From a bacterium (GTDB taxonomy: Bacteria > Vulcanimicrobiota > Vulcanimicrobiia > Vulcanimicrobiales > SCRA01), in NCBI GenBank assembly GCA_004297985.1, contig SCRA01000055.1:1-64000 (forward strand): a stretch of DNA of 64,000 nucleotides. The letters run 5' to 3'. Of this stretch, positions 6,177 to 48,952 are shown piece after piece. The notes under the pieces are model-generated. The model was not told where the DNA came from and ran no database searches. It saw only the letters and a program-made list of their open reading frames with translations. A program made the position numbers and the translations under genes. How positions within the stretch are numbered: position 1 is the stretch's first letter; every line of letters begins with the position of its first letter.

Positions 6177-6249
6177 CTTGACCATTTTCTGCGCCGGCCA
6201 AAGCGGCGCCAACTGCGTCCGTATCGCTATTATCTCGAGGAGGTTGGGA

Positions 6250-9200
6250 GTGGACCTTCGCGTTTCTCTTCACCACAGTTCAGAGCTCGTCCCCACGGCG
6301 GACAACACGATGGGGCCCAGGCTCTACGGTATTCAGACCTACCTTGGTACCGGCGGTCTCGCCGGACGTCTGGTGGACGCGAGCGGGACCGACGTGTTGG
6401 ACCACCTCGGCGGCCAGCAGCGCGAGAATGCTCGGCGTCTGGGCAGTCTCTACCTGAGCGGACTCGGTGGCCCCAACGGCTACGCCGCGCCTCGCGAAAG
6501 CGCAGCGGATGCCTACATCCTCTCGGTAAGCACGGAAGCTGCGGTGACGTACTTGCCGGACGGTTCTGCGGTATCCATCATGAGCGATGGGCAAATTCAG
6601 GAGCGTGTCAGCGAGACCACACCGGCGTTCACGAACGAGGAAGTCGAGAATCTGACGCCAACGCAGATCCAAGGCCTAACGCAGGTGCAGATCCAGAGCC
6701 TGACCGGTCACCAGATCCGGATGCTCTCTGCAACGCAACTGCAAGCCTTCTCTGCGACTCAAGTGGCGTATTTTACGGATCGCCAGGTGCGCGATTTCCG
6801 TCCGGACCAGATCGCCGAGCTCGCGCCCGGGCAGATTTCGGCGCTCACCGCTGGTCAGATGCAGGCCCTCTCCGAGGAACAGCTCCGAGCTCTAACGTCC
6901 ACCCAACTCGCTGCACTCTCGCCCGGCCAGATTTCCGCCCTTCGCCCTCGGCAGATACGCGATCTGCGGCCGTCGCAAGTCTCGAGCCTGACGAGCGCGC
7001 AATTGCAGGCGCTCGGTGAGGAACAGATCGAGGCCCTGTCCGCCGCACAGCTGCAGGCGCTTAGCGTCAACCAATTGCAGTCTTTGAGCGATCAACAGAT
7101 CGCGGAACTCAGCCCACACCAGATTCGCGAGCTGACACCTACGCAGATTGCCGGTCTCACAACGGCGCAAGTTCAGTCGCTGACACTCAAGCAACTTGAT
7201 GCGTTGAGCAATCGCCAAGTACTCGCGTTGACGATCGACCAATTCAAGGCATTCTCCGAAGCGCAACTGCGAGCGCTCGTCAAGAGCCACCAGCAGGAAC
7301 TCGCGGTCCACAATATCCAGAAGCTATCCCCGGAACAGATCAGCCAGTTGTGGTACGGGAAGATCGCCTCGCTGACCCAGGGCCAGATTCAAGAACTCTC
7401 CACGGCGCAGATCCAGGCGCTCACCCCGCTGCAGATATCCGCCTTGCGTACAGACGAAATTGCGGCGTTCCTACCGCAGCAGATGGGCGCGTTCACGGCC
7501 CAGCAGATCCAAGCCTTCACGAATGCCGACGTCAGTACGCTGTCGGTGGCACAGTTACAAGCCATGCGCCCGGACCAAATCGCCGACTTCACACCGGCTC
7601 AGATCCCGGCGCTCTCCTCGACGCAGATCGCCGCTCTCTTACCGGATCAGATCGCGGCGCTGACTGGTCCGCAGCTCCAGGCCCTGTCGAGCTCCCAGAT
7701 CCAGGCCCTCACCCCAGTGCAGTTGCAGGCACTCTCCGCGAACCAGCTGCAAGCGTTCACTGCCGCCCAGATACCTTCATTTACAGCCACACAGATCAAG
7801 GCATTCCTGCCCTCACAGATTGCGGCGTTCTCAGGTGCCCAGATAGCAGCCTTCACGACGACTCAGATCCAGGCGTTGCAGCCGGACCAAATTCAGGCTC
7901 TCACTGCCGTTCAGATCCAGTCGCTGACGACGGGCCAGATCCAGGCCCTCACCGGCTCGCAGATACAGGCCTTTACGACCAGCCAAATCCAAGACTTCAC
8001 GCCTGGCCAGATCCAGGCGTTCACGGCAGCCCAGATCCCTTCGTTCACGGACGCTCAGATCGCGGCGCTGACCACTGCGCAGGTGGGTGCGCTCACCGGA
8101 AGTCAATTGCAGGCGCTGACGGGCGACCAGATCCAGTCGCTGGTGGCTCCGCAGCTTCAGACGCTCTCGAACACGCAGCTGCAGGCCTTCACGGCCGCGC
8201 AGATTCCTTCGTTCACGGCAAGTCAGCTCCAGGCGCTTACTCCGAGCCAGGTCAGGGCGTTCACCGCCAACCAGATCCAAGCGTTCACCGAGACGCAGGT
8301 GCAGGCATTCGCGCCCGACCAGATGGCGGCATTCACGACCGGCCAGATTCAGGCGTTCACCACGACGCAGATCGCCGAGTTCACCGCGCCGCAGATCGAA
8401 GCCCTGACGCAGAGCCAGATCCAGGCGCTCACCGACGCTCAGGTGGCCTCGTTCACCACGGGCGAGATTCAGGCGCTGACGACTACCCAAGACCAGTACT
8501 TCAACCGGGACCAGATCCAGTCGCTGACGACCACCGAGATTCAGGCCTTCACCCCACAGCAGGTCGCATCGTTCACGGCAACTGAGCTTCAGGCATTTAC
8601 TCCAACGCAGCTGCAGGAATTCACAGGGCCGCAAATTCAAGCGTTTACGACCGGTCAAATCTCCGAGTTCTCGATCGGGCAGATCCAATCGTTTACTTCC
8701 ACGCAGATCGCCGGGTTCACCGCCTCGCAGATCCCTGGCTTTACCGATGCCCAGATCGCTGGCCTGACGACGGTCCAAGTTACGGCGTTGACGCCCTCGC
8801 AGCTTCAAGCCCTCTCAAGCAATCAGATCGCCGCGCTTACGGCACCGCAGGTCGGCGTGCTGTCAGCCGGCCAAATCCAGGCCTTCACAACCGGTCAGAT
8901 CCCGTCGTTTACGGTAGCCCAGATCCAGGCTTTCTCGCCGTCGCAGATCGCAGAGTTCACACCGCGACAGGTTGCGGCGTTCACACCGGATCAGATCGCG
9001 GCTCTCTCGCCGGACCAGATCACAGCGCTGACACCGGACCAGCTCCAGGCGCTGACGCCAGCGCAACTCCAGGCCCTGTCGCCGTCTCAACTGCAAGCTT
9101 TCACCGTGGGCCAGATTCCCGCGTTTACGGCGAGTCAGGTCCAGGCCTTCCAGCCCTCGCAGATCGCGGCGTTCACCGACAGCCAGATCGCCGCGTTTAC

Positions 9201-11868
9201 GACACCGCAGATCCAAGCCCTGACATTCAGCCAGATTCAGGCCCTGACGCCGGATCAGATTCGAGCGTTTACGCCGGATCAGATCGCCCAGTTCACGGCC
9301 GCGCAGATTCCAGGCTTCACGGATGCGCAGATGGCCGATCTTAGCACGGACCAGGTTGCGGCACTGACAGGCTCGCAACTGCAGGCCCTCTCGAGCAACC
9401 AGATCGCCGCGCTTACGGCATCGCAAATTGGTGTACTGGCAGCTGGCCAGATCCAGGCCTTCACAACCGGTCAGATCCCGTCGTTTACGGTAGCCCAGAT
9501 CCAGGCTTTCTCGCCGTCACAGATCGCCGAGTTCACGCCACAACAGATTGCGGCGTTCATACCAGGTCAGATTGCAGCTTTGTCCCCGGACCAGATAGGG
9601 GCGCTGACCGCAACGCAGTTCGCTTTCCTGTCACTAGAGGACCTCAATTCACTCGATACTGCGCAAGTGGCGGCCATATCGGCCGCCCAACTGAATGGAT
9701 TGACAGTAGACCAGATCTCGGGTTTGGGAGCCGGTCAGGTTCAGGCGCTGAACAGTGTGCAGCTAAACGCTTTGTCTCCGAGTCAACTAAACGCCCTCAC
9801 GTTGAGCCAGATGCAGGTGCTAACAATTGGCCAGTTGACAAGTCTCAACCCGAGTCAAGTATCGAATCTTGCTCCAGGTCAGGTACGTGCGCTACTATCC
9901 AACCAAATTGCAGCCCTGACCCCCAATCAGATCGAAGCACTAACCGTAAACCAGGTCTTGGCACTGAAGTCTGATCAGGAACTCGCTGAATTCGGGCCAC
10001 TTGACGCAGCTATCCGCGACCTCACATCAGTCCAAATCGCCGACTTGCCGGTGGGAGATTTCGCTGCGCTTCGAGCGGACCAGGTGGCATCGCTAACTGG
10101 TGACCAGATCGCGGCGGTGACGACCTCGGAGACATCGAGTCTTTCAGGAGAGCAGATTGCCTCGATCCAGCCACGCGCGATACAAGAACTAGCCATTGCC
10201 GATCTGCAAGTACTGTCGCAGACACAGTTGACGTCCCTGACCGTCGATCAGATACGCTCTCTGAATAGTACGGAAGTCAGCTCACTCAGGCCCAGTCAAA
10301 TCGGCGCCTTACAACCAGGGCAGGTACAGGCCCTCAGTGTTGCTGATGTGTCGAGCCTTACGTCACAGCAGATGCAATCGTTGCGAGCGGCAGAACTTAG
10401 TGCGCTCTTGCCAGACCAACTAAATAGCCTCTCGGGCAGTCAATTGGCCGCGATGAGCGGCCCACAACTTCGCGATTTCAGTGGCGAACAGCTTCGTCTC
10501 GTCTCTCCCGCTACCAGGTCGCTCATTTCGAACGGCTTCCAGCAAGTACTAACGGCACAGCAAATCTTGGCATTGAATGGTGGAGCAGGAACAGCTTCTC
10601 CGACCGTAACTCTCAGCGCGACGATGCGCGATGGTGCAACAGCCAATTACGCTTATGATGCTTCCAGCGAAACAATGTCTCTCAACCTTCAGGCCGCAGA
10701 TGGTTCGTTCCAATATGGGGACATCCACTACGCGAACGGTAATGAGAAGCAATCAGGTATCGCGCCTGATGGATCGATGGTAAACGTAACCTCCACGGCA
10801 GACGGGCAAAAGATAGTAACGAGCAAAAGCCCGGATGGCGAGACGTCCGTCTGGGTAACCGATGGCGAAGGCAACGTCACGAAGACCGTGACCGATAGTA
10901 ATGGGATTCAGCTGTACTCGATCACGTATAACTCACCAGCGTTCAATGCTGCGGAAGGTTATGACGCCTATGATATCGTCGAGCAGGCGATGCCCCAGCT
11001 TGAAGCGCAATTCAAGGCGGTTGTGGGGAATGCCGAGGAGGAGGGTGGTGGCTCCTGGCAGGGAGAGGCGGCCGCGTTCGCTGCCGGCCTCTTCGCCGGG
11101 GCGGGAGGAATTAGTGATAGCGCTCGGGACATCAAGATTACTACGCCCTACTATTCCGTGGAACTTAACAAGAGTGATAGCTTCGAGAACGACACAATCA
11201 CATACAATGCTGGCGATATAGCAACACAGACTGTCTATAAGGACGTTACGTCTGGCTTCGAGATAGATACCACGAACTATGTAAATGGGGATACATCAAA
11301 GACGTATTATGGAGTATACAATAATATCACACGGACGGTTTTGACCTCGGCGACGGATGGAAGTACCGAAACCATAGACGTGAGCACAATTGATGGCAGT
11401 AAGTCCGAAACCTCGAGAGATGGGAACGGCAATATTATCGGGAGGACAACGATAGACGCAAACGGCAAGATGAGTGAGACTCTGTATGATAATAACGGTG
11501 GGAGCCAAACCATCGACACGGTCTTAGACCCGACAACTGGCGCGACAATTACCACGCTGTACTCAAACGGCGTACTCATGGGATCCTCGTATACAGACAG
11601 TTCTGGACATACTACGGATTATGACGCGTATGGCAATCCGGTGACGAGCTGGAATCAGATCGGATCGTCTGCGACGGGTCCTTCTTCGGGCGGTCAAGTC
11701 GGCGGCTCGTCCCCTGCTGGCCAAACAGGCGCCACGGCGCCGCCAGGTAACGTCGGTTCGGTAGGCACGGGAACGCTTGGCAACGGCCTGAACGCGAATT
11801 TCGCAGAAAACGTCGCTAATCTCGAGTCGTTTATGGGTGGCGGGGGCGACACAATCTACATCATGTAG
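6250..11868 (+). CDS. Giant octapeptide-repeat protein
   Basis: This protein has 1872 residues. GTG 6250 is chosen because GAGGAGG (6237-6243) sits 6 bases before it; the frame upstream to 6178 lacks a ribosome site. Residues ~1-125 are non-repetitive with no signal peptide. Residues ~127-1417 are about 161 tandem octads of the form L/F-T-x-x-Q-I/L/V-x-A. Residues ~1418-1872 form a Gly/Asn/Asp/Thr-rich tail with YD/RHS-like phrases such as DANGKMSETLYDNNG and DAYGNPVTSW, ending in a GGGGDTIYIM tail. The later part is visibly AT-richer than neighbouring genes. Similar Q-I octads occur, as far as I recall, in large surface or RTX-like proteins of Proteobacteria. Role is unknown; adhesion or matrix function is a guess. 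No secretion gene is adjacent. Confidence 0.85.
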   Translation: MDLRVSLHHSSELVPTADNTMGPRLYGIQTYLGTGGLAGRLVDASGTDVLDHLGGQQRENARRLGSLYLSGLGGPNGYAAPRESAADAYILSVSTEAAVTYLPDGSAVSIMSDGQIQERVSETTPAFTNEEVENLTPTQIQGLTQVQIQSLTGHQIRMLSATQLQAFSATQVAYFTDRQVRDFRPDQIAELAPGQISALTAGQMQALSEEQLRALTSTQLAALSPGQISALRPRQIRDLRPSQVSSLTSAQLQALGEEQIEALSAAQLQALSVNQLQSLSDQQIAELSPHQIRELTPTQIAGLTTAQVQSLTLKQLDALSNRQVLALTIDQFKAFSEAQLRALVKSHQQELAVHNIQKLSPEQISQLWYGKIASLTQGQIQELSTAQIQALTPLQISALRTDEIAAFLPQQMGAFTAQQIQAFTNADVSTLSVAQLQAMRPDQIADFTPAQIPALSSTQIAALLPDQIAALTGPQLQALSSSQIQALTPVQLQALSANQLQAFTAAQIPSFTATQIKAFLPSQIAAFSGAQIAAFTTTQIQALQPDQIQALTAVQIQSLTTGQIQALTGSQIQAFTTSQIQDFTPGQIQAFTAAQIPSFTDAQIAALTTAQVGALTGSQLQALTGDQIQSLVAPQLQTLSNTQLQAFTAAQIPSFTASQLQALTPSQVRAFTANQIQAFTETQVQAFAPDQMAAFTTGQIQAFTTTQIAEFTAPQIEALTQSQIQALTDAQVASFTTGEIQALTTTQDQYFNRDQIQSLTTTEIQAFTPQQVASFTATELQAFTPTQLQEFTGPQIQAFTTGQISEFSIGQIQSFTSTQIAGFTASQIPGFTDAQIAGLTTVQVTALTPSQLQALSSNQIAALTAPQVGVLSAGQIQAFTTGQIPSFTVAQIQAFSPSQIAEFTPRQVAAFTPDQIAALSPDQITALTPDQLQALTPAQLQALSPSQLQAFTVGQIPAFTASQVQAFQPSQIAAFTDSQIAAFTTPQIQALTFSQIQALTPDQIRAFTPDQIAQFTAAQIPGFTDAQMADLSTDQVAALTGSQLQALSSNQIAALTASQIGVLAAGQIQAFTTGQIPSFTVAQIQAFSPSQIAEFTPQQIAAFIPGQIAALSPDQIGALTATQFAFLSLEDLNSLDTAQVAAISAAQLNGLTVDQISGLGAGQVQALNSVQLNALSPSQLNALTLSQMQVLTIGQLTSLNPSQVSNLAPGQVRALLSNQIAALTPNQIEALTVNQVLALKSDQELAEFGPLDAAIRDLTSVQIADLPVGDFAALRADQVASLTGDQIAAVTTSETSSLSGEQIASIQPRAIQELAIADLQVLSQTQLTSLTVDQIRSLNSTEVSSLRPSQIGALQPGQVQALSVADVSSLTSQQMQSLRAAELSALLPDQLNSLSGSQLAAMSGPQLRDFSGEQLRLVSPATRSLISNGFQQVLTAQQILALNGGAGTASPTVTLSATMRDGATANYAYDASSETMSLNLQAADGSFQYGDIHYANGNEKQSGIAPDGSMVNVTSTADGQKIVTSKSPDGETSVWVTDGEGNVTKTVTDSNGIQLYSITYNSPAFNAAEGYDAYDIVEQAMPQLEAQFKAVVGNAEEEGGGSWQGEAAAFAAGLFAGAGGISDSARDIKITTPYYSVELNKSDSFENDTITYNAGDIATQTVYKDVTSGFEIDTTNYVNGDTSKTYYGVYNNITRTVLTSATDGSTETIDVSTIDGSKSETSRDGNGNIIGRTTIDANGKMSETLYDNNGGSQTIDTVLDPTTGATITTLYSNGVLMGSSYTDSSGHTTDYDAYGNPVTSWNQIGSSATGPSSGGQVGGSSPAGQTGATAPPGNVGSVGTGTLGNGLNANFAENVANLESFMGGGGDTIYIM
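6628..10500 (+). repeat. 24-bp coding tandem repeat, about 161 units
   Basis: Each 24-bp unit encodes one octad, typically starting TTC/CTG-ACG and carrying CAG-ATC in the second half. From the Phe codon at 6628 to the last octad ending at 10500 the length equals 161 units plus 9 bases, and an 11-residue unit is visible near 9985-10020. Units are diverged at DNA level, except for recent copies such as ~8811-8990 versus ~9387-9566. The conserved residues are Thr/Ser at position 2, Gln at 5 and Ile/Leu/Val at 6. Confidence 0.9.
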
Positions 11869-13943: not shown

Positions 13944-14068
13944 GATCGGCGCGGATTTCACCGCGCCGCATCGCTGCCCTTGGTGCCGTCGTTGGAGCGA
14001 TGGCGATCAGCGTCACTAGGAGCGCCCGCTGAGGGGTGCGAACCAACCGGGCCTAGAGGGGGGCGAAC

Positions 14069-14539
14069 GTGGTGCTAGCTGTGAGTGACCGGATCCCGGC
14101 GTTCACCGCCGCGGACGATACGGGTGCGACACGGAGCTCTCAGGAACTGCTGGGACGGCCGTTCGCGCTGTGGTTCTACCCGAAAGATGCCACGCCGGGG
14201 TGAACGGACGAAGCGTCGCAGTTTCGCGATGCATATCCCGCCTTCGAGAAGAAGGGCATTGAGATCGTGGGCGTGAGCAAAGACAGCGTGGCCTCGCATC
14301 GGCGCTTCAAAGCCGCGCACGCACTTCCGTTCATCTTGCTTGCCGACGAAGAGCGGCAACTCTGCGAAGCCTTCGGCGTGCTGGTCGAGAAGACGATGTA
14401 CGGCAAGAAGACGATCGGCGTCGCGCGCTCGACGTTCCTGATCGGCGCGCAAGGCGTCCTCCGTGCCGTCTGGCCCAAGGTCACCGTGGAGGGGCACGCC
14501 GCCGACGTTCTAGCGAAAGCCGGCGCCGCGCTGACGTGA
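14069..14539 (+). CDS. bcp: Selenocysteine-containing peroxiredoxin (Bcp/PrxQ family)
   Basis: The frame reads through one TGA at 14201-14203 (residue 45) and then runs to 14539, giving 156 residues. Before the TGA is FALWFYPKDATPG and after it TDEASQFRD; Bcp proteins have FYPKDxTPGCTxEA, so UGA replaces the peroxidatic cysteine. Downstream features also fit Bcp: IVGVSKDSVASHRRF, PFILLADEE, the YGKK segment and RSTFLIG. The GTG start follows GAGGGG. A hairpin with SECIS spacing follows the UGA. The enzyme would reduce hydroperoxides with a selenolate. selA/B/C/D are not in this window and must be elsewhere. The alternative, a nonsense mutation, is unlikely because a second Prx-type gene at 48458 has the same substitution. 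Confidence 0.88.
14213..14232 (+). promoter_or_regulatory. Putative bacterial SECIS hairpin in the bcp gene
   Basis: A 7-bp stem with one G-U (14213-14219 with 14226-14232) carries a 6-base loop AGTTTC. The loop is 17-22 bases after the UGA, within the spacing known for bacterial SECIS elements, and has a G at its second position as expected for SelB binding. Confidence 0.6.
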
Positions 14540-14541
14540 GC

Positions 14542-15324
14542 ATGAACGGGGCGGCGTTGAGATTGACGGTCCTCGGCGCCAGCCCCGCGGTGCCCAACCC
14601 CGGACGCGCATGCTCCTCGTACCTCGTCGAGTCGGGAGAGCATCGCCTAGTACTCGATCTCGGCACCGGCGCGTTTGCCAACCTGCGCTGTCACGCCTCG
14701 TACACGGCGATATCGGCGGTGGTGATCTCCCACATGCACGCCGACCACTTCATCGACGTGGTGCCCTATCGCTACGCGCTCAAGTACGGCGACGAGCGGC
14801 GAGCGGAGCCGCTGCCGTTACTGTTGCCGCCCGACGGCGAGCGACTGCTGCGCGCGATGGTGAGTGCCTTCGCACGCGAGGGGGATGCGGGCGACTTCCT
14901 CGACGAGTCCTTCGCTGTGCAGACGTATGACCCGGCACGCCCCCAGCGCATCGGCAACCTCGAAGTACGCTTCGCGCTCACGTGCCACTATATCCCCGCC
15001 TACGCGATGCGTGTCTCAGACGGCCATCGTGCGCTGGTGTTCTCGGCCGACACTGCCCCCGCGCCGGAGATCGTCGCGCTCGCGAAAGGGGCCGACGTCC
15101 TGCTCTGCGAGGCGACGCTCGAACCCGGCTGCGTGGAACAAGGGGAGCGGGGCCATTCGACGCCCGCGGAAGCCGGTGCGATGGCACGCGACGCCGGCGT
15201 GTCGCGTCTGGTGTTGACGCACTACCCGCTGAGTATCGAAGGCGAGGCGATTCGCGCCGATGCCGCGCGCGCCTTCGCAGGCGAGATCATCCTCGCCCAC
15301 GACCACCTTACGCTCGAGATCTAG
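14542..15324 (+). CDS. MBL-fold metal-dependent hydrolase
   Basis: This 260-residue protein has a metallo-beta-lactamase fold of the RNase Z/phosphodiesterase-like type. The zinc-binding signature is SHMHADHFID. Further metal ligands are in LTCHYIPAYAM, FSADTAP, RLVLTHY and ILAHDH. The N-terminus LTVLGASPAVPNPGRACSSYLV is typical of this group. It follows the Sec peroxiredoxin directly; GTG 14536 would even overlap that stop codon, so the pair is probably one transcript. The substrate is unknown. Confidence 0.82.
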   Translation: MNGAALRLTVLGASPAVPNPGRACSSYLVESGEHRLVLDLGTGAFANLRCHASYTAISAVVISHMHADHFIDVVPYRYALKYGDERRAEPLPLLLPPDGERLLRAMVSAFAREGDAGDFLDESFAVQTYDPARPQRIGNLEVRFALTCHYIPAYAMRVSDGHRALVFSADTAPAPEIVALAKGADVLLCEATLEPGCVEQGERGHSTPAEAGAMARDAGVSRLVLTHYPLSIEGEAIRADAARAFAGEIILAHDHLTLEI

Positions 15325-19819: not shown

Positions 19820-21469
19820 CTACCGGCGGCGCTTGGTGGGCACGGCCTTTTTGGCGGGTGCGGCCTTTTTGGCGGGCACGGCCTTTTTGGCGGGTGCGGC
19901 CTTCTTGGCGGGCGCGGCCCTTTTGGCGGGCGCGGCCTTTTTGGCGGGCGCGGCCTTTTTGGCGGGCGCGGCCTTTTTGGCGGGCGCGGCCTTTTTGGCG
20001 GGCGCGGCCTTCTTGGCGGGAGCGGCCTTCTTGGCGGGCGCGGCCTTCTTGGCGGGCGCGGCCTTCTTGGCGGGCGCGGCCTTCTTGACGGGGGTGGCCT
20101 TCTTGACGGGCACGGCCTTCTTGACGGGGGCGGCCTTCTTGACGGGCACGGCCTTCTTGACGGGCACGGTCTTCTTGGCGGGGGCGGCCTGCTTGGCCGG
20201 GGCCGTCTTCTTTGCCGGCGTCTCCTTCGGCGGTGCAGCCGATCTCTTTGGCGCCTTGGCGGGCCGCTCAGCGGCTGGTTTGGCGCGCTCCTTCCCTGTC
20301 GGGCGCGTGGGCTTGGTGGCCGCGGGGCGCTCGGGCGTCGTGCGGACCGCACGCGTCACGCGGCGACGTGTGCGGCGCCCCTCCTCGCGGGCACCGGCGG
20401 CAGCCTCCGGCTCTTCCGGCAGGCCGAGCTCCTTGCGGCCTAGACCGCTGATGCTCGAGCCGGGAAGCGGGACCACGGGTTGCACGGTCTGGGCGATCAG
20501 CTCCTCGGTAGCACGTAAGGCGACACGTGCGAGGCGCCCGGCGACGGGAAAGACCAGCTCGTTGATCTCCAGCTCATCGAGCATCGCAAGCACGCGATCG
20601 AAGGCAGCGCCTTGGTGGATGGGGCTGTGCGCGTCGGAGCCGACGGCGATGCCCACGTCGGCCGCCTTGGCCTTGCGCAACAGCCGTTTGTTGGCTGCGA
20701 GCCAAGCCTCGACGAGTTCGGGATTGTCGACATCTCGATAGAGCACGCGCGTATTGAACTCGATCGCCATACCACGCTCTTTGCAAACGGCGATGACACG
20801 GTCCTCATACTCCTCGAGCTTTGCCTGCGAGGGCCAGAAGCCGAACTTCCCAGGCACGAAGAAGTGACCTAAAATGTTGCCCGGCAGCTTCTCGGCAGCC
20901 TCGATGACGCTGGTGACATAGAGTTCCCACGTCTGCTCGATCCCTACGTGGAGATAGAGATCCTTGAACTCCGGATTGTCGAACGGCCACATCCACCCTT
21001 CGCCGTGCTCGGGGTGCGTGATGGGCAGGAAGTGCACGCTGCGGATCAGCCCGTCGGGGCGCATGGCTTCAACGATGTTCTGGGCGTCGGGACGATTGCG
21101 TGGATCGTTATCGGCTTCGACCCCGATGGAAAAACGGAAGCCCCGGCGCAGAGCCGCTCCGACCGCCTCCGCCACGGGATACGAGACGTTCGCCGTCTCC
21201 GCGGCGCCGTAGTGGTCGCCGGCGAAGGCCAGCTTTAACGCCCGCCGGCAGAGGTTGACTGCCGCCGGATCCTCGAATGTGAGGTAGTTCATGTGGTCCG
21301 CAACCATCAAGAATCGCGGCGAGCCACGCCGCGAGGCGTGGTAGAACCACTGGAAGAGCATCCGGGCCGTATAGGCGATCGGACGCTCCTCTGTATATGG
21401 TCGGTGTTCGCCCTTCGCGTGCCCGTGCGAGTCAGGGATTGCGGCGAGTCTAGGATCTGCCGTCGTCAC
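19820..21469 (-). CDS. PHP-domain protein with a histone-H1-like C-terminal tail
   Basis: This is a 549-residue protein. Residues ~12-335 form a PHP (polymerase and histidinol phosphatase) metal-dependent phosphoesterase-like domain, with HGHAKGEH, VADHMNYL, FSIGVEAD, ITHPEHGEG, AIEFNTR and VGSDAHSP as likely metal-binding segments. From ~375 on it becomes Pro/Arg/Lys-rich, and the last ~120 residues are near-perfect repeats of K-K-A-A-P-A ending in TKRRR, like the DNA-binding tail of histone H1. It starts with GTG 21469. A phosphatase joined to a polycationic tail suggests action on nucleic acid, polyphosphate or another polyanion, but the substrate is not known. Confidence 0.8.
   Translation of the reverse strand: MTTADPRLAAIPDSHGHAKGEHRPYTEERPIAYTARMLFQWFYHASRRGSPRFLMVADHMNYLTFEDPAAVNLCRRALKLAFAGDHYGAAETANVSYPVAEAVGAALRRGFRFSIGVEADNDPRNRPDAQNIVEAMRPDGLIRSVHFLPITHPEHGEGWMWPFDNPEFKDLYLHVGIEQTWELYVTSVIEAAEKLPGNILGHFFVPGKFGFWPSQAKLEEYEDRVIAVCKERGMAIEFNTRVLYRDVDNPELVEAWLAANKRLLRKAKAADVGIAVGSDAHSPIHQGAAFDRVLAMLDELEINELVFPVAGRLARVALRATEELIAQTVQPVVPLPGSSISGLGRKELGLPEEPEAAAGAREEGRRTRRRVTRAVRTTPERPAATKPTRPTGKERAKPAAERPAKAPKRSAAPPKETPAKKTAPAKQAAPAKKTVPVKKAVPVKKAAPVKKAVPVKKATPVKKAAPAKKAAPAKKAAPAKKAAPAKKAAPAKKAAPAKKAAPAKKAAPAKKAAPAKRAAPAKKAAPAKKAVPAKKAAPAKKAVPTKRRR
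19824..20220 (-). repeat. 18-bp tandem repeat encoding KKAAPA hexapeptides
   Basis: About twenty 18-bp units (coding strand reads roughly GCC AAA AAG GCC GCG CCC) make up the 3' end of the PHP gene. Units nearest the stop are almost identical; farther ones vary (V for A, T for A, AAG for AAA). Such repeats change copy number readily by slippage. Confidence 0.88.
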
Positions 21470-47517: not shown

Positions 47518-48378
47518 CTAGGTACGTTCGGCGGCGGCGATCACGTTGCGCATCAGCGCCACGTTGGTCACGGGCCCGACGCCGCCAGGAACGGGCGTGA
47601 TTGCCGCGGCGATGCGCGCGACCTCCTCATAGGCGACGTCGCCTTTGAGCACGCTTTTGACGACGGTGGTTCCGACGTCGACGACCGTCACCCCCGGCGA
47701 AACCATCTGCGCGGTGATCAGGCCGGGAACGCCGGCCGCCACCACCAGCACCTCCGCTTCGCGTGTGTGCCGCGCGAGATCCGTCGTGGCGATGTGGCAG
47801 GTCGTCACCGTGGCGTCGGCGGCCAGCAGCAGCAGCGAGACGGGGAGTCCCACCACCACCGAGCGTCCGACCACCACGGCGCGCTTCCCGCGCACGGGCC
47901 AGGCGGGCGAAGCCTCCAGCAGCAGCATCACCGCTTGTGGCGTCGCGGGCACGAAGAGCGGATCGTGACCGTATGCGAGCCGCCCCTGGTTGGCGGGGTT
48001 GGTGGCGTCGACGTCCTTCTGCTCCGAAATGGACGGTGCGATACGTTCGATGCGCAGGTGGCGCGGCAGCGGCTGATGCAGGAGGACGCCGTGGATCGAG
48101 GGATCCTCGCCCAAGACCCGCAGGCGCCGTTTCAAGCGCTCCTCGGTGGCATCGGCCGACATCTGCTCGAGATCGACCTCGATGCCGATCTTCGCGCCCA
48201 GCTTCAAGAGCGAGCGTGCGTAGGCCAAGCTGGACTCGTCCTCGCCCACCATCTCTACCACCAGACGCGGCGCGTTGCCCGCTTCTCGCAGGCGCTCGGC
48301 ACGTCGTGTGAGGTCGGCGGTCAGCTCGCGCGCCAGGGCGCGACCGTCCAGGAGGGTGGCGGTGGTCTCCAACTGCAT
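47518..48378 (-). CDS. folD: Bifunctional methylenetetrahydrofolate dehydrogenase/cyclohydrolase
   Basis: This is a 286-residue FolD. It has the catalytic tyrosine and lysine region [48 protein letters not shown], the NADP-binding [18 protein letters not shown], and the C-terminal [17 protein letters not shown]. It interconverts one-carbon forms of tetrahydrofolate. YARS with Lys seven residues on is the active-site spacing; usual SxxYxxxK becomes [11 protein letters not shown]. The start at 48378 is the family N-terminus. The gene is divergent from the Sec redoxin. Confidence 0.93.
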
Positions 48379-48457
48379 ACTCCGAGGGGTGCGAGGGCGG
48401 CACTGCCTTCTTGAGCATGCGGGCGGGACCCTGGCCGATTGGGAAGAAGGCTGGATC

Positions 48458-48952
48458 ATGGAGACGACGCTCGTTGGACGGGCTGCCCCGGCGTTCACCC
48501 TTCCCGCCAGTGACGGTACGGAGATAGCGCTGGGGAGCTTGCGGGGCAAGCCTGTGGTGCTGGCGTTCTTCCGGGGCACCTGGTGACCGCGCTGTCGTAA
48601 GCAGCTCGTCGAGCTGCAGCAAGCCGCACAGGAGTGGGAGACGCGCGGTATCGGGGTCCTAGGTGTGGTGGGTCAGCGTTCTGAGCCGGTCCAGCGCCTA
48701 CGCACCAAGCGGGGCATCGCCTTCCCGATCCTCATCGACGCCGACCGCGCGGTGATCAAGCGCTTCGGCGTCTATCACCGGTTGGGGATCGATGCGGTCA
48801 ACATCGCGCGCCCGGCCGTCTTCGTGCTCGACGCGCAGGGTGTCGTGCGCTGGCAGCATGTCGCGCGCAATCAATTCGACCGCCCATCGGTTGCACAGAT
48901 CGACGCCGCCCTCGCGCTCGCGGCGGAAGGCCAACGCGCTCAGGTGCGATAG
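48458..48952 (+). CDS. Selenocysteine-containing AhpC/TSA-type redoxin
   Basis: The frame from ATG 48458 reads through one TGA at 48584-48586 (residue 43) to 48952, giving 164 residues. Around the TGA the text is [20 protein letters not shown]; related redoxins have RGTWCPxCRxQL, so UGA stands at the first, peroxidatic cysteine, and the second becomes U-x-x-C. Upstream [26 protein letters not shown] and downstream [20 protein letters not shown] and [12 protein letters not shown] match the family. A perfect hairpin with SECIS spacing follows. It would be a cytoplasmic thiol/selenol peroxidase. Its end overlaps the convergent M48 protease gene by 13 bases. Confidence 0.88.
48601..48617 (+). promoter_or_regulatory. 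Putative bacterial SECIS hairpin in the redoxin gene
   Basis: A perfect 7-bp stem (48601-48607 with 48611-48617) closes a GTC loop 22-24 bases after the UGA, with G as first loop base. Spacing and loop agree with bacterial SECIS elements recognised by SelB. Confidence 0.6.

Follow-up and report, generated by a model that had tools for sequence, protein, structure and literature searches.

The locus lies in a window of 64,000 nucleotides, the whole stretch of DNA that was analyzed, on contig C44 of a 3.19-Mb genome (90 contigs, 96% complete). Judging from its sequence, the gene at positions 14069 to 14539 almost certainly encodes a selenocysteine (Sec)-containing Bcp/PrxQ-type peroxiredoxin (Sec-Bcp) of a Candidatus Eremiobacterota bacterium. 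The phylum was assigned from named relatives. The features, all on the forward strand, are as follows.

14055..14063, +, purine-rich Shine-Dalgarno-like sequence AGAGGGGGG, retained in the leaders of sister genomes G029 and G030; putative role
14069..14539, +, predicted Sec-Bcp (PrxQ-type peroxiredoxin) gene, 156 residues with Sec45, plus TGA stop
14201..14203, +, putative Sec-encoding TGA, peroxidatic residue U45, placed by U/C alignment of homologues
14213..14232, +, bSECIS-type hairpin, stem 14213-14219 / 14226-14232, loop 14220-14225 (AGTTTC)
14536..15324, +, metallo-beta-lactamase-fold hydrolase, GTG start overlapping the Bcp stop (GTGA)

The peroxiredoxin frame and its surroundings

The frame contains one internal stop codon, the TGA at 14201-14203, and ends at the TGA at 14537-14539. 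Translated with U, it reads VVLAVSDRIP...FYPKDATPG-U-TDEASQF.... The first-pass annotation had placed a single TGA exactly where TPGCT has its cysteine, and the sequence bears this out (DATPG-U-TDEA). Its remark that gene callers would split the gene or miss its N-terminal half fits the mechanical list of open reading frames (minimum 80 amino acids), in which the frame is represented only by a 90-residue fragment at 14267-14539. The annotation is corrected here for a gene that standard callers would cut short. The start codon is uncertain, with GTG codons at 14069, 14072, and 14081. G029 has CAG aligned to 14069 but retains the GTG at 14072, which favors a start at 14072 or 14081.

Rfam, tRNA, and promoter scans of the locus returned no Rfam match, no tRNA, and no sigma-70-like site. 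One terminator-like site was found, inside the downstream gene, versus 0.7 expected. All matches in the phage search (20 records) were below 60% identity. The overlap of the Bcp stop with the GTG of the hydrolase suggests that the two genes may be cotranslated. The top NCBIfam match of the hydrolase scored 149.9 against a cutoff of 400, and the protein has no clear link to peroxide. Elsewhere in the window, a 1,896-residue frame (6178-11868, +) consists mostly of short LTxxQIQAL-type repeats, and the C terminus of a 549-residue frame (19820-21469, −) is a long lysine/alanine/proline repeat (KKAAPA).

Sec-Bcp passes the curated cutoff for PF00578 (AhpC-TSA) with 115.3 bits against 26. It carries the PxxxTxxC/U motif and the conserved arginine (P38, T42, U45, R120), and both T42 and R120 are present in every one of the 70 homologous loci read. 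The closest solved chain is PDB 5enu (5.7e-44), followed by the BCP/PrxQ series 5iph, 5iox, 5iiz, and 3gkk, which we take to be Xanthomonas PrxQ. Residues 5 to 151 form an unbroken match to a solved PrxQ-like chain. Sec-Bcp is PrxQ-like but lies outside the curated NCBIfam equivalogs, scoring under the cutoff of every NCBIfam model matched, including the best match, the PrxQ equivalog NF053650 (131.3 of 260), and the thiol peroxidase/PrxQ model NF006960 (113.8 of 140).

Selenocysteine machinery and the SECIS hairpin

The first-pass annotation had made its reading depend on selenocysteine machinery in the genome, and selA, selB, selD, and tRNA-Sec are all present. SelA was matched at 7.8e-145, the N- and C-terminal parts of the SelB model fall within one 641-residue frame, SelD itself contains one in-frame TGA (SSCAG-U-ASK), and tRNA-Sec scored 71.7 bits with a UCA anticodon. 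The selA, selB, and tRNA-Sec genes are clustered within 12 kb on contig C72. Across the phylum, SelA was matched in 122 of 149 genomes, one of these matches being weak (G012, 1.8e-4).

A 7-bp hairpin with an AGTTTC loop follows the TGA, as had been claimed, but its stem begins after 9 bases rather than 10. Its loop (AGUUUC) lies 16 nt from the UGA, and its folding energy is −12 kcal/mol. The proposed check of 14201-14240 for a SECIS element came out in favor of one: the hairpin agrees with the bSECIS constraints given in the available part of PMC13188914, with a 6-nt loop and G then U at loop positions 2 and 3. Compared with 200 shuffles, the 26-nt hairpin is the better folder in 199 cases (z = −3.35). 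The advantage of the 48-nt stretch beginning at the TGA is only moderate (z = −1.53), with 13 of 200 shuffles folding equally well.

From the machinery, the codon, the hairpin, and the catalytic residues, all read directly in the DNA, we infer that Sec is inserted and that the product acts as a peroxidase. SelA and SelD would produce Sec-tRNA(UCA), and SelB, bound to the hairpin just past the codon, would deliver Sec at UGA 14201-14203, as the known pathway suggests. By analogy with the family, Sec45 would attack the peroxide together with Thr42 and Arg120 and become a selenenic acid. A resolving cysteine is absent both at +5 (S50) and at the position of the XcPrxQ resolving residue C84 (K81), so recycling would have to rely on C99 or, in a direct reaction, on an external thiol. 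C99, the only other cysteine of Sec-Bcp, is Cys in 53 of 70 homologues. One-Cys members exist among the Bcp/PrxQ peroxiredoxins.

Fifteen PF00578 matches were found in the genome, five of them with one TGA, each at the active-site position. Together with SelD and a formate dehydrogenase-like protein, these five Prx/AhpC-TSA proteins bring the number of selenoprotein candidates predicted from the genome sequence to at least seven.

The window-wide TGA scan yielded 138 frames, of which the Sec-Bcp gene and one other were analyzed further. This second candidate in the window is an AhpC-TSA protein at 48275-48952 (+), with the TGA at 48584-48586 (FFRGTW-U-PRC); its match to a SelL-related redox family, 58.9 of 120 bits, is under the cutoff. 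Three further AhpC-TSA frames of the same genome each have one in-frame TGA: L031:4881-5261 (−; FTPV-U-TS), L032:3906-4277 (+; GAY-U-PFC), and L033:3369-3749 (−; FTPD-U-TIE). The formate dehydrogenase-like molybdopterin oxidoreductase (L193, G000:C38:15980-17386, −) has its TGA in NQARI-U-HSST, which resembles what we take to be the E. coli FdnG motif. G029, G030, and G031 share with the genome of the window a pair of PF00578 matches ~2.6 kb apart, one containing a single TGA and the other none.

Sec/Cys exchange and loss among relatives

Of the 149 genomes examined from the phylum, 125 yielded homologues of Sec-Bcp. Seventy loci were read at the codon aligned with U45, and it was TGA in 35, TGC or TGT in 35, and nothing else; the loci comprised the 30 top matches and 40 picked ones, enriched for rows with stops rather than drawn at random, and this ratio is therefore not a frequency. 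Alignment with Bcp proteins, the comparison proposed in the first-pass annotation, thus gave a clean U/C swap. In one TGA locus (L180), the alignment is gapped at the site, and the TGA itself was taken as position 45. The “one TGA” column of the homologue search overcounts, since 12 loci so marked have Cys at 45 (L038, L042, L043, L048, L049, L052, L053, L148, L154, L167, L168, and L169); wherever the printed alignment of these loci shows the TGA, it is near the C terminus. TAG or TAA was also considered as a Sec codon, as one such codon occurs per match in G095, G130, and G045. The corresponding loci (L055, L153, and L159) have a Cys codon at 45 and give no sign of an alternative Sec codon.

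By-eye comparison placed 33 of the 35 TGA loci in SelA-positive genomes; the Cys loci were divided between 30 in SelA-positive and 5 in SelA-negative genomes. In the two TGA-bearing exceptions, G071 (63% complete) and G024 (96%), neither SelA nor an above-cutoff tRNA-Sec was found. A single missing contig could explain this, because selA, selB, and tRNA-Sec lie within 12 kb of one another in the genome studied here. Of 366 named GTDB-contig loci, the best 80 were compared: two have TGA at the aligned codon, one from an Eremiobacteria metagenome-assembled genome (MAG) (L065) and the other from a Blastocatellia MAG (L072), and the remaining 78 have Cys.

In a tree of 70 proteins, Sec-Bcp clusters with Sec-containing proteins from class-level relatives (support, 86/93); the support values were still unsettled, and Sec-Bcp sits on a long branch. 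At least four changes between Sec and Cys are required on this tree (bootstrap range, 3 to 7).

With ten far rows omitted (nine far TGA loci and L181), 26 close TGA genes and 34 close Cys genes were compared for the hairpin. Twelve of the former have the full 7-bp stem and 16 have at least 6 of its 7 pairs, whereas none of the latter has the full stem. Paired cells make up 82.4% in TGA genes, a value reached by 10 of 500 shuffles, and 70.1% in Cys genes, a value reached by 469 of 500. Since Cys genes share the inner pairs, part of the hairpin reflects coding constraint. A simple rule detects no hairpin in four of the 26 close TGA genes (L145, L063, L064, and L151), so the SECIS varies among them. 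Family f3 (L172 to L180), the nine far TGA genes, has a different layout, with a (G)GTC-loop hairpin 28 to 29 nt past the TGA, whereas the near clade has an AGTTYC hairpin at 16 nt.

Two of three congeners lack the gene or carry it in broken form. In G030 (L190, C35), it is almost wholly gone, while the leader and both flanks, including the downstream hydrolase, remain. G029 (L192, C51) retains the leader and the hydrolase around a relic that lacks 252 bp holding the TGA and the hairpin and has a second gap. The match in G031 was confined to the upstream gene, near a contig end, making this genome uninformative on the loss. The two losses suggest that Sec-Bcp is dispensable in the genus, although errors in the draft assemblies could still account for them.

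Such decay within the genus, and the derivation of the sequence from a single draft genome, might suggest that the gene is dead, a Cys codon having been mutated or miscalled to TGA. We consider this very improbable, as the TGA occupies the identical position in 34 more loci, the rest of the frame is intact and includes T42 and R120, the genome encodes the Sec machinery, and other genes of the genome show a like pattern. Decoding of the TGA as an amino acid other than Sec, through a genome-wide code change or near-cognate read-through, would also leave the frame open on both sides of the codon. It is still harder to credit, given that all 35 loci read without the TGA have Cys at the aligned residue, that a dedicated tRNA-Sec with a UCA anticodon is present, and that TGA also serves as a normal stop, ending 17 of 42 long window frames in the mechanical set and the Sec-Bcp gene itself. 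Nor is there any realistic prospect that the locus holds two short genes, a 44-residue N-terminal peptide and a C-terminal fragment from the GTG at 14267: the latter does appear in the mechanical list as a 90-residue frame, but it would have no active site, and the match to the solved PrxQ-like chain is continuous over residues 5 to 151, as it likewise is in relatives. A selenocysteine-containing peroxiredoxin is by far the favored reading.

Sec-Bcp among known selenoproteins and peroxiredoxins

The available part of PMC9312934 lists Sec-Prx as an experimentally verified selenoprotein family, in agreement with the earlier claim that selenocysteine Bcp proteins are known in bacteria. The family also figures in the available parts of a 2006 survey (PMC1794560) and of the 2022 (PMC9312934) and 2026 (PMC13188914) reviews. 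Sec-Bcp is thus an addition to an already known selenoprotein family. Literature searches on selenoproteins and selenium found no study of selenocysteine use in Ca. Eremiobacterota, and a text search of PMC13188914 for “Eremio” returned nothing. Use of Sec-Bcp across this little-studied phylum seems to be undescribed so far.

Aerobic bacteria rarely retain selenoproteins, according to the available part of PMC13188914, and the first isolate of the phylum is described in the available part of PMC9758169 as an aerobic anoxygenic phototroph. We see the case as evenly balanced for a broader proposal, namely, that Ca. Eremiobacterota is a phylum whose use of Sec has been overlooked, with a selenoproteome that leans on peroxide-reducing enzymes despite its aerobic first isolate (PMC9758169), contrary to the rule for aerobes (PMC13188914, both as available in part), and with a Sec-Bcp marked by at least four Sec/Cys swaps, two SECIS layouts (16 nt and 28 to 29 nt), and ongoing loss in sister species. 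Sec-Bcp points to widespread selenocysteine use in the phylum. The Sec/Cys pairs, and a genus in which one member keeps the gene while its sisters are losing it, would form a natural series for studying the benefit of Sec to a peroxiredoxin under oxygen, and the series also suits the origin, movement, and disappearance of SECIS elements. The interest lies in the phylum and the loss series rather than in the Sec-Bcp gene itself.

The selenoprotein Prx listed in the available parts of PMC9312934 and PMC13188914 (COG1225 Bcp) is of the AhpC-TSA type, like Sec-Bcp, and the two share the TxxU and PxxxTxxU motifs with Sec at the peroxidatic position. These sources, as far as available, stress anaerobes; the host of Sec-Bcp belongs to Ca. 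Eremiobacterota. The Ca. Eremiobacteria MAG protein (L065), which has TGA at the aligned codon, is 57% identical to Sec-Bcp. The Blastocatellia MAG protein (L072), also with TGA at this codon, is 47% identical and has a cysteine five residues past the Sec that Sec-Bcp lacks. In Xanthomonas PrxQ/BCP (3gkk, 5iiz, and 5iph) and in 5enu, the peroxidatic residue aligned with U45 is Cys instead of Sec, a further Cys aligns with C99, and C84 of XcPrxQ corresponds to K81. PrxU (NCBIfam NF040737) is a thioredoxin-dependent peroxiredoxin, and its type protein, from Eubacterium acidaminophilum, likewise contains Sec. Sec-Bcp scores 39.2 bits against this model versus a cutoff of 270, which places it outside the PrxU subfamily.
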